Assembly: GCA_902620465.1 (NCBI GenBank)
Contig: CACNIF010000001.1
Span: 62,001-126,000 of the forward strand
Direction: 5' to 3'
Source of the DNA: an uncultured Pelagibacteraceae bacterium
Lineage (GTDB): Bacteria; Pseudomonadota; Alphaproteobacteria; Pelagibacterales; Pelagibacteraceae
DNA length: 64,000 bases
The notes below the pieces were generated by a model. That model did no database searches and was not told the DNA's origin. It saw only the letters and a list, made by a program, of their open reading frames with translations. The position numbers and the translations under genes are program-made. Positions 2,502 through 62,075 of the stretch are shown here, piece after piece (the stretch's first letter is position 1; every line of letters begins with the position of its first letter).

Positions 2502-3145
2502 AAATTTTTTTTTTTTATCTTTTTAATGTTGATTATAAATGAGTCGGTGCTAGTTATGCTTTTTTTTTCTTTATAATCCAAATCCCAAATTTTTAAGGTT
2601 TCACCTAAAATTTTTCTTCCACTTTTTCCCATAAATAAGATTAGATTATTGAATTGCCTAAAATTTTCATTTACTAGATCCAAAATTATAGGCATAGGTT
2701 TAAATGCTCTTGATATTATGGTTCCTGTTTCAATGTTCTTAAGTGTAAATATATCTTTTTGAATAATTTCTGTATTTAGGTTTAATTTTTCTGAGACATC
2801 TCTCAAAAAAGCACATTTGTGATGACTTTTTTCATAAAGGTTTATTTTTAATGAATTTTTTATCTTTTTCATGACAATTGCTATAACAAGTCCTGGCATC
2901 CCACCTCCCGTCCCTAAATCGCAGGTTGTATTACTATTTAAATCAATAAAATCAACTATTTGAGCAGAATCTATTATATGTCTTTGTCGTATTTCGTTTA
3001 TTTGTGAGGTTTTTTTACTAATTATATTAATTTGATCATTTTTTTGTTTTATCATTGATATTAAACTCTCAAGCTCAGAACAGGTTTCACGTGAAACTTT
3101 AGGTATTGGTATTTTTGAATAAAAATTTAAAATTGAGTTATCCAT
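2498..3145 (-). CDS. rsmG: 16S rRNA (guanine-N7)-methyltransferase RsmG (GidB)
   Basis: VSRET motif, DLGTGGGMPGLVIAI SAM-binding motif, synteny mnmG-rsmG-parA-parB. Confidence 0.95.
   Translation of the reverse strand: MDNSILNFYSKIPIPKVSRETCSELESLISMIKQKNDQINIISKKTSQINEIRQRHIIDSAQIVDFIDLNSNTTCDLGTGGGMPGLVIAIVMKKIKNSLKINLYEKSHHKCAFLRDVSEKLNLNTEIIQKDIFTLKNIETGTIISRAFKPMPIILDLVNENFRQFNNLILFMGKSGRKILGETLKIWDLDYKEKKSITSTDSFIINIKKIKKKNL
3083..3098. promoter_or_regulatory. Candidate parS centromere site
   Basis: GGTTTCACGTGAAACT: the 14-bp core GTTTCACGTGAAAC matches the core of the parS consensus TGTTTCACGTGAAACA and is fully palindromic; encoded in rsmG beside parAB. Confidence 0.9.
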
Positions 3146-6469: not shown

Positions 6470-8158
6470 TTAATTATATATTTTTTCTAAAGATTTGAAA
6501 AATTGGTTCGAAAATTTCTTTTGATCAAACAAGGGAGAACTTAAAGCATTATCAAAAACAATATTACGTATCTTTTTAAGGTTTTTGACATTTTTTTCTA
6601 AACTCACAGCAATATTTATATAATCATTTTCATTTTCAGCAATTAATTCCTTCAAGTTAAGATTTTTATTTATAGACTCACCACTTCTTGAATTATAATT
6701 AAATCCTTTCATCGTAAGCACAGGAACACCCATCCAAATTGCCTCAAAGGATGTTGTAACACCATTATAAGGAAAGGTATCTAATGCAATATCTATTTTT
6801 TTATACTGATTTAAGTGATCCTCAAAATTTCCTTTAAAAGACAAAAATTCAATAGAATTTAAAACATCATGTTTCCTAAATTTTTCAACCATTGCAGATC
6901 TAAAAGTAGCATTGGAAGATTTTAAAATTAATTTTGAATTCTTCACTTTTTTTAATATTTTTGACCAAACTTTTATAACTCTGTCATTTATTTTATTATA
7001 ATTGTTAAAGGATCCAAAAGTTATAAATTTATTTTCAACTATTGGTGCTGTTATCTGTAACCTTGGTATGTCAAAACCAGAATGACAATTCCAAATATCT
7101 TCCATGTATAAAATTTTTTCAGAGTATAGTTTTTTTTCATCTTCAAAAATCAAATTTTTATCCGCAATTATATAGTCCATTTCTTTAATTCCAGTTGTAT
7201 TCTGAAAACCACACCAAGTTATTTGTGTTGGTGCTAATCGATTTTTATAAAGAGACAATCGGTGATTAGATGTAAGACCCATCAGATCAATAAGTATATC
7301 AATTTTATCGCTTCTCACTAAATTGATCACCTCAATATCGTCTAAGTTTCTAATATTAGTCATATTGTCTACATATTGCTTAAAATCTCGCGTTGTCGAA
7401 TCTTCCTTGTCAGGTTTATTTCCATCATAAATACTTATGTTAAATTTATTTCTATCGTAATTAAGTAGAACAGTTTTTAAAAAATGAGTAACAGAATGCC
7501 TAGATCTTATATCAGCAGAGTGAAAACCAATATTAATTTTTTTTCTATCCGAACCACTTATTTTAACTATTTTATCTTGAGGATAAGTAATTAATTTTTG
7601 ATCTAGGATTTGAGAATATTCTAAAAATTTTTTTTGATCCCAATTATAAATAAAACTTTGATAATAAATGTATGATGCCAAAGCATCAATACTGGACGTT
7701 TCTTTTTCAGCGATTTGATTAAGGTAATAGATAACCTTTTCCATATCTACATTGCGAACTAATGCTCTAACTAAAGCTCTTGTAAGCTCATCATTTTTTT
7801 CAAAATAATCTCTATTATCATTATAATATAGGAAAATTTCCTTGAGAATATTACCTGTTAAATTTATTTCATTCGACTTGAATTCGATATCAAAAAGATC
7901 AATAGAAGCATTTATAAAATTTTTCAAAGCGTTAAAAGAATGTTCAGTTTTTTTTTTGTCTTTTAAATATGCTGTTCTAAAATCAATTATTGCACTTTTT
8001 AAAGTTACTTCTGATTTATCAGATAATATTTTGCACACCCCAGATAAATTAATTAATCCTGAATTCAAATTTTTCTTATCAATATTTTGTATAATTGATA
8101 AGATTTTTGTATACTTTTTTTCCTCAAAGAGTTTTTGAAAATCAATTTTTTTGTTCAT
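6470..8158 (-). CDS. GT41-like (SPINDLY/OGT-type) glycosyltransferase, copy A
   Basis: C-terminal motifs IDILIDLMGLTSNHRL, RLAPTQITWCGFQNTTG, FGSFNNYNKI, DIALDTFPYNGVTTSFEAIWMGVPVLTM. Confidence 0.85.
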   Translation of the reverse strand: MNKKIDFQKLFEEKKYTKILSIIQNIDKKNLNSGLINLSGVCKILSDKSEVTLKSAIIDFRTAYLKDKKKTEHSFNALKNFINASIDLFDIEFKSNEINLTGNILKEIFLYYNDNRDYFEKNDELTRALVRALVRNVDMEKVIYYLNQIAEKETSSIDALASYIYYQSFIYNWDQKKFLEYSQILDQKLITYPQDKIVKISGSDRKKINIGFHSADIRSRHSVTHFLKTVLLNYDRNKFNISIYDGNKPDKEDSTTRDFKQYVDNMTNIRNLDDIEVINLVRSDKIDILIDLMGLTSNHRLSLYKNRLAPTQITWCGFQNTTGIKEMDYIIADKNLIFEDEKKLYSEKILYMEDIWNCHSGFDIPRLQITAPIVENKFITFGSFNNYNKINDRVIKVWSKILKKVKNSKLILKSSNATFRSAMVEKFRKHDVLNSIEFLSFKGNFEDHLNQYKKIDIALDTFPYNGVTTSFEAIWMGVPVLTMKGFNYNSRSGESINKNLNLKELIAENENDYINIAVSLEKNVKNLKKIRNIVFDNALSSPLFDQKKFSNQFFKSLEKIYN

Positions 8159-8169
8159 CCTTTAATTGC

Positions 8170-8231
8170 CAAAATTTTATTATAATAATTTCCAATACTC
8201 TAGGACCAATAGATAAAGCATAAATAGTCAT
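8170..8231 (-). pseudogene. Degenerate duplicate of the mnmE 5' end
   Basis: Minus strand from ATG at 8231 translates MTIYALSIGPRVLEIIIIKFW versus MnmE MTIYALSTGPGVSGVAIIRIS; sits 12 nt past the GT copy B stop, as mnmE sits 10 nt past the GT copy A stop. Confidence 0.9.
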
Positions 8232-8243
8232 AGATAAAATTAT

Positions 8244-9926
8244 TTAATTATATAATTTTTCCAAGCTAGAAAAAAATCCATCTGAAAATTTCTTTTTATC
8301 AAATAAAGGTGTTTTTGAAACGTTATCATAAATATTTTTTCTTATCTTAATCAACTCTTCTGCGTTCAGAGCTAAATTAACAGCTTTTTTTATATAGTCT
8401 TCTTTATCATTACCAATTAGTGAAACAAGATTTGCGTTTTTATTTATGGACTCACCACATCTTGAATTTAAATTGTGGCCTTTCATTGTGACTACCGGAA
8501 CACCCATCCAAATTGCTTCAAATGAAGTTGTAACTCCATTATAGGGAAAAGTGTCTAAAGCTATATCGATGTCTTTATAAGTTTCTAAATGATTTGAAAA
8601 TTTTTTTTTAAACGGCAAAATAATTACAGACTTTAATACACCATATTTATCAAATTCTTCTTTGAATCTTTCAGTCGATATAGGAAATGATGTTTTCAAC
8701 ATTAATTTTGAATTTTTAACTTTTTTTAATATCTTTGACCAAACTTGAATTACATCGTCATTTATTTTTCTAAAATTATTAAATGATCCAAATGTAATGA
8801 ATTTTTTTAAAATTGAAGGCGCCGAATTAAATTCTCTTTTACTATCATAACCGTAATGACAATTCCAAATTTCTGGTAAATAAATAATTTTCTCCGAATA
8901 ATATTTTTCCTCATCAGGTTTTATTAAATTTCTATCAGCAATTAAATAATCCATTCCCGAAAGCCCAGTTGTATTTGGGTATCCACACCAGGATATTTGA
9001 ATAGGTGCTACACGGTTTTTAAACAATGTCAATCTATGGTCTGAAGTTAGTCCGTTAAGATCAATAATAATATCAATCTTGTCTTTTCTAATTTTATTAA
9101 TAACTTCAATATCTTTTAAACTTTTTATTTCATATATTATGAAAACTTTGTCCTCAAATTCTTTGATTGTATCATCTTTCTTGAGATTATTGTTATAAAT
9201 GAAAATGTTATACTTTTTTTTGTCATAAAAATTAATTACTGTTTTTAAAAAATAAACTACAGAATGTTTCCCCCTAATGTCAGACGATATGAATGCTATA
9301 TTTAATTTTTCATTTTTATTATTTATAATTTTTTCTAATCCATCATTTTTGTGTATAGGAACTAAATCACTAATCTTTTTTGAATTATTGAGAAATTCTT
9401 CTTGACTCCAGCCAAAAATATAATTTCTAAAAAAGATAGATGCTATTAAGGCGTCTATGTTAGAACTTAAATCAAAAACTTTTTTATAATGTTTAATAAT
9501 GGTTTCTGTATCTGAAGTACGTACAATAACTTTTGAAAAGTTGTACATCAAAACTTTATTTGTTTCAAAAAAACTTTTGTTTTTTTCGTAAAAAAAATAT
9601 ATATCATCAAAGAAATTTTTTTTGAGTTCATTTTCATTTTCTCTAAATTCATTATCAAAATGAATTACAGAGGTACTTATTAAATTTCTTAATGGATCAA
9701 ATAATTTTTCTGTTACTGTTTCTTTCAAACATGAATCTTTAAAATCTTGTATTGCAGATTTCTCAGCAGCAGAGGACTTGCCCGCCAACATTCTTGAAAC
9801 ACCACAGAGATTCAATAAACTAGGTGTTTTATCTTTTTCTTTAAGTTCGTTTTCAATTATTGAAACAATCAAAGAATATTTTTTTTCCTTTAATAATTTT
9901 AAAAAATTAGTGCTCTTTGTCGGCAT
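8244..9926 (-). CDS. GT41-like (SPINDLY/OGT-type) glycosyltransferase, copy B (start likely the ATG at 9926; track ORF extends to 9935 through a TTG)
   Basis: Co-linear paralog of 6470..8158; DIALDTFPYNGVTTSFEAIWMGVPVVTMKG. Confidence 0.85.
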   Translation of the reverse strand: MPTKSTNFLKLLKEKKYSLIVSIIENELKEKDKTPSLLNLCGVSRMLAGKSSAAEKSAIQDFKDSCLKETVTEKLFDPLRNLISTSVIHFDNEFRENENELKKNFFDDIYFFYEKNKSFFETNKVLMYNFSKVIVRTSDTETIIKHYKKVFDLSSNIDALIASIFFRNYIFGWSQEEFLNNSKKISDLVPIHKNDGLEKIINNKNEKLNIAFISSDIRGKHSVVYFLKTVINFYDKKKYNIFIYNNNLKKDDTIKEFEDKVFIIYEIKSLKDIEVINKIRKDKIDIIIDLNGLTSDHRLTLFKNRVAPIQISWCGYPNTTGLSGMDYLIADRNLIKPDEEKYYSEKIIYLPEIWNCHYGYDSKREFNSAPSILKKFITFGSFNNFRKINDDVIQVWSKILKKVKNSKLMLKTSFPISTERFKEEFDKYGVLKSVIILPFKKKFSNHLETYKDIDIALDTFPYNGVTTSFEAIWMGVPVVTMKGHNLNSRCGESINKNANLVSLIGNDKEDYIKKAVNLALNAEELIKIRKNIYDNVSKTPLFDKKKFSDGFFSSLEKLYN

Positions 9927-10025
9927 AACGTCCAATTATATATTTATTGGATAACATTATTATTTTTTTTGAATAAAAATAGTTTTTTTTTGTATTTTTT
10001 AACTCTCTGTATATTTAGACTAGAT

Positions 10026-12795: not shown

Positions 12796-13797
12796 TTAAT
12801 AATCTTTCACTGTTTTTACTAAATAATTCATCATTTCTGGGTCTGTGTCAGGCAAAATTCCATGCCCTAAATTGAATATATAAGGGTGATCTTTAAAGAT
12901 ATCTAAATATCTTCTTGCTTCTTTTTTTAAACTTTCTTGATCAGTCAACAAAATTTTTGGATCCATTCCTCCTTGAACAGGAATTTGGATATCTTTTATA
13001 ATCTCTTTAGGATCAACTTCATAATCAATACAGACTGCGTCTGGCTTAACAGTTTCACAGTAATCTTTATATCTTTTTATACCTTTAGGAAAACATATGA
13101 CTGGAATGTTTAAAGATTTTGTAAATTCAACTAAGTTTACAGTGGGTCCATAAACATAATTTTGCAAATCTTTTTCATTTAATAATCCCGCCCAACTGTC
13201 AAAAATTTGAATAATTTGCGCACCGTTTTCAACTTGATTTTTAATATGCACTTTTAAAAACTTTTCAATAATCTCCAAAGTTAAACTTATTAAGTTTTTA
13301 TCTTTAAAAAAATCACTCTTTAAACCCGCCTTTGGAGATTTTTGATTAATCATGTATACTAAAAGAGTCCATGGAGCACCAACAAAACCTATTGTGTTCT
13401 TATTTTTTGTAAGAGCATTATTATTAATTAAATTAACAAGCTTGTAAACTGGATTAAGTCTCTCAACAAAATTGGTTTCATTCAATTTTAAAATACTATC
13501 TAAATCTAAATTTCCTAATATAGGTCCGACTCCTTTCTTAAACTCAACTTTTTGATTTAATCCATATGGTAACATTAAAATATCTGAAAAAATTATTGCA
13601 GCATCTAAATCAAACCTTTTTAAAGGCTGTAGAGTTATTTCTGCTGATAATTTTTCGTTTAAACATAACTTTATAAAATCAGGATTTTTACTTCTAATTT
13701 CTCTAAACTCTGGCAAATATCTTCCTGCTTGTCTCATAATCCAAATAGGCTTTATTGCTGTATCGTTATTTTTTAAAACTTTATAAATAGGGGTCAT
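12796..13797 (-). CDS. hemE: Uroporphyrinogen decarboxylase
   Basis: PIWIMRQAGRYLPEFRE, IIFSDILMLP, FNLGHGILP. Confidence 0.98.
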   Translation of the reverse strand: MTPIYKVLKNNDTAIKPIWIMRQAGRYLPEFREIRSKNPDFIKLCLNEKLSAEITLQPLKRFDLDAAIIFSDILMLPYGLNQKVEFKKGVGPILGNLDLDSILKLNETNFVERLNPVYKLVNLINNNALTKNKNTIGFVGAPWTLLVYMINQKSPKAGLKSDFFKDKNLISLTLEIIEKFLKVHIKNQVENGAQIIQIFDSWAGLLNEKDLQNYVYGPTVNLVEFTKSLNIPVICFPKGIKRYKDYCETVKPDAVCIDYEVDPKEIIKDIQIPVQGGMDPKILLTDQESLKKEARRYLDIFKDHPYIFNLGHGILPDTDPEMMNYLVKTVKDY

Positions 13798-14058
13798 ATT
13801 TAAAATATATAATATAAGATTGTAGTATTCTTAGGGAGTGTGAATAATGGTAATTATTTTTTATTAACATTTTATTAACTATTTATTCTTAAATTTATCA
13901 TTAATTAATAGGTAACTTATGAATTGCCCAACCATTTGTATATTTGTTTTTCACTAAATAAATTATGTTGATAAAACCCTTATTTTACAAGCCATTTTAA
14001 ATAAAAATAAATTTGTTTAATTTTATTAAGATATTACAAAGATATTAACAAAATATAC
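13798..14058. other. Candidate chromosomal replication origin (oriC)
   Basis: AT-rich hemE-ppsR gap at a divergent orientation switch; DnaA boxes TTATTCACA (13839-13847, minus), TTATTAACA (13861-13869, plus), TTATCAACA (13966-13974, minus); TTAA-N7-TTAA at 13864-13878; 11-bp-period repeat AAGATATTA at 14028 and 14039. Confidence 0.82.
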
Positions 14059-14889
14059 ATGAGTAATACTTATCAAATATTCTTAATTTCTGACTCTACA
14101 GGAGAAACCTTGGATAGAATCTTTTTATCTTTAAAAGCACAGTTCAAAAATATTGATTATAAAGTTAATTCTTATTCTTTCACACGAACCGAGAACCAAA
14201 TTCATAAAATTCTCGAAATAGCAGAGAAAGAAGAAAATCCTATTATTTTATACACAATTGTAGACAACAACTTAGCCAAATGTTTAGCTAACTTGTCTAA
14301 TAAAAGAAGAATACCTTGCTTTGGGGTCTTGGGTAGCTTGATATTAAATTTTTCAAAACTATTTAATCAAAAAGCATCTCATGAGCCAAGCGGTCAACAC
14401 GTTTTAGATGAAGAGTACTATAATAGAATTGAGGCCATTCAATACACAATGAACCATGATGATGGAAATTTGCTTATTGATATTGAAAAATCTGATATAA
14501 TTTTATTGGGTGTTAGCAGAACTAGCAAAACACCTACTTCAATATATTTAGCAAACAAAGGTTATAAAACAGCAAACATACCTTTGATAAATCAGAATTC
14601 CATACCAAAAAATTTAAGAACAAATCCGCAAAATTTTTGTATTATTGGTTTAACAACCGAAGCCGAAAGGTTGGCTGATATAAGAAAAAATCGAATAAAT
14701 TCTTTAAAAAATATGAAAGGTCAAGACTATACTAATTTAGATAAAATTAAAAAAGAAGTTGAAGATGCAAAAAATACTTTTAGAAAGTATAAATGGCCAA
14801 CCATAGATGTAACAAGGAAATCCGTTGAGGAAACAGCTGCATCAATAATAAAAATTTACGAAATTTTTTCAAATAAAAAGAATGGATAA
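14059..14889 (+). CDS. ppsR: Pyruvate, water dikinase regulatory protein (DUF299 kinase/pyrophosphorylase)
   Basis: FLISDSTGETLDRI, LGVSRTSKTPTSIYLANKGYKTANIPL. Confidence 0.93.
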   Translation: MSNTYQIFLISDSTGETLDRIFLSLKAQFKNIDYKVNSYSFTRTENQIHKILEIAEKEENPIILYTIVDNNLAKCLANLSNKRRIPCFGVLGSLILNFSKLFNQKASHEPSGQHVLDEEYYNRIEAIQYTMNHDDGNLLIDIEKSDIILLGVSRTSKTPTSIYLANKGYKTANIPLINQNSIPKNLRTNPQNFCIIGLTTEAERLADIRKNRINSLKNMKGQDYTNLDKIKKEVEDAKNTFRKYKWPTIDVTRKSVEETAASIIKIYEIFSNKKNG

Positions 14890-61498: not shown

Positions 61499-62075
61499 TA
61501 ATTTTATATTTATTAATTAAACTGATTTGAAAAGCAGTGAATATAAATGTAATAGGTAATAAGCCCCATACTTTAAAGTTAACCCAAAACTCTTCAGTTT
61601 GAGTTCTCCATACTAACTCATTTAAAACTGCCAATCCGAAGAAAAAATATATCCATCTTTTATTTAATATTTCCCAGCCTGTATCTGATAATGAAATTGA
61701 ACCACCCATAATTTTTTTAAGTACGGGCTCTTTTGTAAAATATCTACCAAATATTAAAGATAATCCGAATAAGATATTTATAATAGTTGGTTTAATATAA
61801 ATGAAAACTGGATTATCAAAATAGATAGTCAGTCCACCAAATAATGTAATTAGTATTCCACTAATTAAAGGAACTTTAGGAATTTTTTTCTCTAGCATCC
61901 ACATAATTATTAGTGCGATAATAGTTGCAATTATGAAAGGTGGTATCGCAATCTTTAAATCTTTGTCACTATCGTAATAGTAGTAAAAAAAAATTATAAG
62001 CGGCCCGAAATCTGTAAGAAATTTAATTAAGGATTTATTCACAAAAAAGATATTAACATAAATAAAATTTAACAA
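61491..62075 (-). CDS. yciB: Intracellular septation protein A (YciB)
   Basis: LIKFLTDFGPLIIFFYYYY, GWEILNKRWIYFFFGLAVLNELVWRT, WVNFKVWGLLPITFIF. Confidence 0.93.
   Translation of the reverse strand: MLNFIYVNIFFVNKSLIKFLTDFGPLIIFFYYYYDSDKDLKIAIPPFIIATIIALIIMWMLEKKIPKVPLISGILITLFGGLTIYFDNPVFIYIKPTIINILFGLSLIFGRYFTKEPVLKKIMGGSISLSDTGWEILNKRWIYFFFGLAVLNELVWRTQTEEFWVNFKVWGLLPITFIFTAFQISLINKYKINE

Follow-up and report, generated by a model that had tools for sequence, protein, structure and literature searches.

Where does replication start on the chromosome of a SAR11 bacterium, and how is the DNA opened there? The question is raised by the spacer between the divergent genes hemE and ppsR (13798–14058; 261 bp), which an initial annotation had marked as a candidate replication origin (oriC). 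The window, that is, the whole 64-kb stretch of DNA analysed here, spans positions 62001–126000 of contig 1 in a 13-contig draft genome (G000; 969 kb, 78% complete), hereafter called the source genome. The named genomes closest to it are uncultured Pelagibacteraceae (SAR11). A search of the open-access literature turned up no study of a SAR11 origin.

DnaA boxes and conservation of the hemE–ppsR spacer

The left boundary gene of the spacer is hemE (uroporphyrinogen decarboxylase; 12796–13797, minus strand), which scores 315.9 bits against TIGR01464 (cut-off 303), and the right boundary gene is ppsR (COG1806, a pyruvate phosphate dikinase/PEP synthase regulator; 14059–14889, plus strand; PF03618). 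The two genes diverge from the gap, in agreement with the initial annotation. The annotation had also stated that the Caulobacter and Rickettsia origins lie beside hemE with the same neighbours, and hemE–COG1806 is indeed the published origin location in both (PMC1914354). Adjacency to hemE and/or COG1806, the criterion for a hemE-type alphaproteobacterial oriC in that study, is found for the spacer. High AT content, a further criterion for oriC, is present as well: the AT-rich tract noted in the gap belongs to a spacer with 83% AT, compared with 70% for the genome, and this value is matched in only 0.3% of the 261-bp windows of the contig (top 0.2–0.3%).

The one perfect and two near DnaA boxes of the initial annotation are all present where it had placed them. 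The perfect box, TTATTCACA (box 1; 13839–13847, minus strand), is the putative anchor of the unwinding element described below. It has one mismatch to TTATCCACA and thus lies within the two mismatches allowed for the box of a basal unwinding system (BUS). The weak box TTATTAACA (box 2a; 13861–13869, plus strand) is conserved as TTATnAACA, in which the fifth base is free, and box 3, TTATCAACA (13966–13974, minus strand), is enclosed by a conserved dyad block, ATGTTGATAAAACCCTTATTTTACA (13965–13989). The earlier inventory was incomplete, as it did not list a second weak box, TTATTAACT (box 2b; 13872–13880, plus strand), 11 bp past box 2a, a terminal box adjoining the ppsR start (14042–14050, plus strand; ATATTAACA here, TTATTAACA in the SAR11 consensus), the phased TA steps at 13821–13833, or a perfect box, TTATACACA, in the interior of ppsR (14248–14256). 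The last of these is located 190 bp past the spacer and could extend the DnaA-binding region.

One perfect TTATNCACA alone is weak evidence for an origin; there are six in the window, and the expectation is 0.024 per 261 bp. A single near box also means little because one-mismatch boxes are not enriched across the window (81 observed vs 102 expected). Three exact matches to TTATN[AC]ACA, a pattern picked after the spacer had been seen, occur in the spacer, where 0.05 are expected. When intergenic regions are ranked by box clustering, the spacer comes first of 175 (minimum length 100 bp) in the source genome and first of 222 in a closed relative (G003). The unusual clustering also holds on a set of 69 SAR11 spacers (68 other loci and the window) with TTATNNACA, which has a density of 3.19 per spacer vs 0.25 in shuffles.

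All 68 other loci have a gap of 260–283 bp flanked by the same hemE/ppsR pair. The spacer alignment contains four conserved patches amid otherwise variable AT-rich DNA, namely the phased TA steps with box 1 (patch 1), the weak-box pair TTATnAACA-TTTTATnAAC with a spacing of 11 bp (patch 2), the dyad TGTTnATAAAA...TTTTACA including box 3 (patch 3), and TTATTAACA beside the ppsR start (patch 4). The patterns of patches 2 and 3 each occur once in the source genome. The terminal ACA of box 1 is present in 100% of 63 unique SAR11 sequences, and TTATN[AC]ACA is found in 68 of the 69 spacers.

Position of the spacer in the chromosome

Chromosomal position was evaluated in G003 (1,343,202 bp), with which the spacer-bearing contig is syntenic, and in 240 kb of a second relative (G044). 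The cumulative GC, AT and coding-strand curves of G003 have a maximum at 616–621 kb and a broad minimum at 1231–1291 kb, and the spacer is at 1262 kb. A two-breakpoint fit likewise places the origin at 1231–1291 kb, with wide bootstrap intervals. The GC-skew minimum, which the initial annotation had named as a check, therefore agrees with the spacer, which lies within the minimum basin and opposite the maximum, at a resolution of only about ±30 kb. The GC skew of the source contig by itself does not place the origin. Most of the skew in G003 reflects gene orientation. The GC skew at fourfold-degenerate sites is −0.073 in leading-strand genes and −0.011 in lagging-strand genes; because the silent-site skew is more negative in the former, the G-rich leading strand appears to be due to gene orientation and not to silent sites.

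Because the basin is 60 kb wide, the origin might lie elsewhere within it, for example at dnaA (63–66 kb from the spacer) or where the skew has its point minimum, at a distance of about 31 kb. In other phyla, origins are commonly situated at dnaA, and in three genomes a local minimum lies 31–33 kb off the spacer; in the source contig and G044, it is on the parAB/dnaA side and in the same flat basin. However, neither dnaA nor the point minimum has an intergenic box cluster. There is nothing origin-like near the 1231-kb minimum of G003, and only scattered boxes with no intergenic cluster were found near 1291 kb. Of the 1343 1-kb bins of G003, only 15 (GC), 22 (AT) and 36 (strand) outscore the spacer, whereas 126–178 outscore dnaA. 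The absence of TTATNNACA from the 500 bp upstream of dnaA, together with these better-scoring bins, speaks against a dnaA-linked origin, which was rejected, and an origin at any other point of the basin is scarcely credible.

The segregation genes parB (865–1707) and parA (1707–2501), both origin-proximal and on the minus strand, are also in the window. A parS-like palindrome, GGTTTCACGTGAAACT (3083–3098), is located within rsmG; it contains the sole TTTCACGTGAAA of the source genome, and 10.7 kb separate it from the spacer. G003 likewise has a single TTTCACGTGAAA, at the orthologous site and 7.2 kb from its spacer, and the best parS match in G044 is about 8 kb away. The parAB genes and the TTTCACGTGAAA parS core are thus found 7–11 kb from the spacer.

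Several other features of the surrounding region were observed. Two tandem glycosyltransferase family 41 (O-GlcNAc-transferase-like) genes are situated between mnmE and rho (6470–9935), near the origin. Contig junctions compared with G003 give a hint of ori-symmetric inversions, although the junctions are few. A 189-aa OmpR-type regulator with an unrecognisable receiver domain, possibly a CenR ortholog, is encoded 21 kb to the left of the spacer (G000 contig 1, 54786–55352). It is present in nearly all SAR11 genomes searched, at about 18–24 kb from ppsR/hemE where compared, and its relatives are found about 20–40 kb from hemE in several other alphaproteobacteria.

Within the skew basin, the site is pinned to the spacer by the combination of its clustered boxes, high AT content, conservation and nearness to parS with the unwinding element described below. 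The original oriC proposal is thereby upheld, at the same location as in Caulobacter and Rickettsia. Therefore, the hemE–ppsR spacer is very probably the chromosomal replication origin of this SAR11 bacterium, with the caveat that it has only one strong box, whereas many origins have more. Because the location follows from a known alphaproteobacterial rule, it would be an origin of an already known type.

A putative unwinding element on the hemE side

Box 1 is followed in the direction of hemE by a 5-bp linker (13834–13838, minus strand; CTCCC on the box strand), which occupies the position of the GC-rich linker in known basal unwinding systems and has the counterparts GGTAC, GGCAT and GGGAT in relatives. 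Next to it is a DnaA-trio-like element with TA steps every 3 bp (13821–13833; plus strand TGTAGTATTCTTA), and an AT-rich tract extends from there to the hemE start (13798–13820). By analogy with the basal unwinding system (PMC8287927), this tract would be the DNA that melts first. Among 31 SAR11 representatives, TA is found on the box strand at +6, +9, +12 and +15 from box 1 toward hemE in 97, 87, 65 and 84%, respectively, and at the other positions from +5 to +17 in at most 3%. The spacing and phase of these TA steps appear to be those of DnaA-trios, which are defined by a box, a spacer of at most 16 bp and at least three NAN repeats (PMC8287927). The central A is present at the same four positions in 86, 83, 62 and 89% of the SAR11 relatives, most of which have at least three consecutive NAN repeats and satisfy the BUS search rule (at least three NAN within 16 bp of the box). 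The SAR11 repeats typically read GAT-TAT-TAT-GAT (3′–5′) and depart from the GAT consensus. In the source genome, the second repeat is off (TCT, with TC for TA) and interrupts the consecutive 3′-NAN-5′ run; because of this deviation, the strict unbroken BUS pattern has zero matches across the draft.

Judged from sequence, the layout of box 1, linker, phased TA steps and AT-rich DNA on the hemE side appears to be that of a basal unwinding system, and it narrows the place of the putative DNA-opening element to about 50 bases. The BUS of Bacillus subtilis oriC has the same succession of a box, a short linker, 3-bp repeats on the DnaA-bound strand and an AT-rich tract. However, it has a tandem box pair, whereas SAR11 has a single strong box. 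Compared with it, the SAR11 linker and repeats are degenerate (T is allowed where G/A is usual), and one central position is off in the source genome.

The sister family (f2) has a different gene arrangement. All 12 sampled genomes gave no match to ppsR, 11 of the 12 have a hemE match, and the gene order is hemE–spacer–maf–aroE where readable. Despite the loss of ppsR, the box and trio-like repeats are retained beside hemE. In two genera (L221 and L225), TAGTAGTAGTAGTTG precedes the box with a full NAN run, and these repeats look like unmistakable textbook trios. Some f2 spacers (L218–L228) contain a tail-to-tail box pair, e.g., TTATCCACAGGTGGAT in L218, in place of the dyad of family f1. Several other alphaproteobacterial families have a box followed by GGCAT or GGGAT and then CTA/CCA/CCT repeats upstream of hemE, such as TTATCCACA-GGCAT-CCA-CTA-CCT-CTA-CTT (L247) and TTATTCACA-GGGAT-AAA-CAA-CTA-CTA-CCT (L246). 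An automatic trio search with ad hoc scoring in 30 other alphaproteobacterial families gave clear cases in only about one-third to one-half of them.

These comparisons bear on two alternative readings. One is that the conserved motifs are merely the divergent hemE and ppsR promoters with their regulator sites, and that there is no origin. Both promoters must fit in the spacer, the TA-phased element is 25–45 bp upstream of hemE at a possible −10 position, and TTTACA (13984–13989) could serve ppsR as a −35 element. However, promoter-like sites are not enriched (3 vs 4.5 in shuffles), whereas the motifs correspond to DnaA boxes and trios and survive the loss of ppsR, and the spacer is the top box cluster of the genome within the skew basin. 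We regard a purely promoter-based explanation as very unlikely. The other reading accepts the origin but has it open without DnaA-trios, by melting from AT content alone or on the ppsR side. It would fit a spacer that is AT-rich over its entire length (83%) and an imperfect SAR11 trio consensus with one repeat broken in the source genome; against it stand the TA steps, which across 31 representatives keep a strict 3-bp register at the distance from the strong box expected of trios, and the textbook trios of the sister family. Such trio-free melting is therefore rather unlikely, and trio-based opening of the origin is the probable mode.

The SAR11 DnaA protein is full length and of the standard type. 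Its domain IV signature (PRQ...SLPxIGxxF...RDHTT) aligns, and among solved structures the chain most similar to it is 8btg (B. subtilis DnaA bound to the BUS). We infer DnaA occupancy, strand opening, helicase loading and their order for trio-based opening. Domain IV of DnaA would bind the strong box at 13839–13847, with boxes 2a and 2b (the phased weak boxes), box 3 and the terminal box recruiting further DnaA cooperatively. An ATP-DnaA filament may then grow from the strong box toward hemE, across the 5-bp linker and onto the trio-like repeats (13821–13833). The filament would keep the trio strand single-stranded while the AT-rich hemE leader (13798–13820) melts. The helicase would be loaded at the melted leader, and forks would depart both ways.

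CtrA-like motif and comparison with known origins

Boxes 2a and 2b together read TTAAC-N6-TTAAC (13861–13880), which has the look of a CtrA site. Control by a CtrA-type response regulator at this motif, as in Caulobacter, would be consistent with the exact match in the source genome and with the CtrA sites known in the Caulobacter origin and reported for Rickettsia. However, the CtrA-like form is kept in only 10 of the 69 SAR11 spacers, in contrast to the near-universal TTATN[AC]ACA (68 of 69). The base that varies corresponds to the unconstrained fifth position of the DnaA box, so the constraint fits DnaA and not CtrA; the motif appears to evolve as tandem weak DnaA boxes and is not conserved in its CtrA-like form. 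The source genome has four OmpR-type regulators (PhoB and three others), and none of them passes the CtrA equivalog cut-off in an NCBIfam scan (best 125 of 350 bits). G003 likewise has only four, the scan having covered the G000 set. Pelagibacter has been reported to be without ctrA (PMC2877005). Given the absence of a CtrA equivalog among the four regulators of the draft and the lack of conservation of the CtrA-like site, control by CtrA through this motif is highly improbable. The CtrA reading of the motif was dropped, and the origin is probably controlled without CtrA.

CtrA and IHF sites have been used as origin features in a study that nevertheless notes the paucity of CtrA sites in several origins (PMC1914354), and we treated them as non-essential for assignment as oriC. 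In SAR11, the CtrA-like site is not conserved, and the window spacer has no match to the IHF consensus, which occurs in 27 of the 69 SAR11 spacers. The Rickettsia prowazekii origin shares the hemE–COG1806 boundary and is similarly AT-rich (82.6% vs 71% for the genome; PMC1914354). It is longer (384 bp), and CtrA and IHF sites are reported there, in contrast to the window spacer without an IHF consensus. The Caulobacter crescentus origin (Cori) also has the hemE–COG1806 boundary and, like the SAR11 spacer, combines moderate DnaA sites with very weak ones (G-boxes and W-boxes; PMC4468827). However, Cori has 404 bp compared with 261 bp, and it differs from SAR11 in its CtrA control and in GANTC, which is found in none of the 69 SAR11 spacers (0.67 expected per spacer). 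GANTC is also depleted about twofold in the G003 genome as a whole.

As a tentative model, the SAR11 origin may be a stripped-down, CtrA-free version of the Caulobacter type. The former CtrA/DnaA overlap sites would have become phased low-affinity DnaA boxes, and the SAR11-specific dyad (13965–13989) might be bound by an initiation-timing factor that replaces CtrA.

Across the order, the comparison indicates that the origin element was kept while a boundary gene was lost and Caulobacter-type CtrA control is apparently absent. The spacer offers a fragment from which replicating vectors could be built. SAR11 bacteria rank among the ocean's most abundant cells, and a precise origin would allow growth-rate estimates from metagenomic read depth to be anchored correctly.
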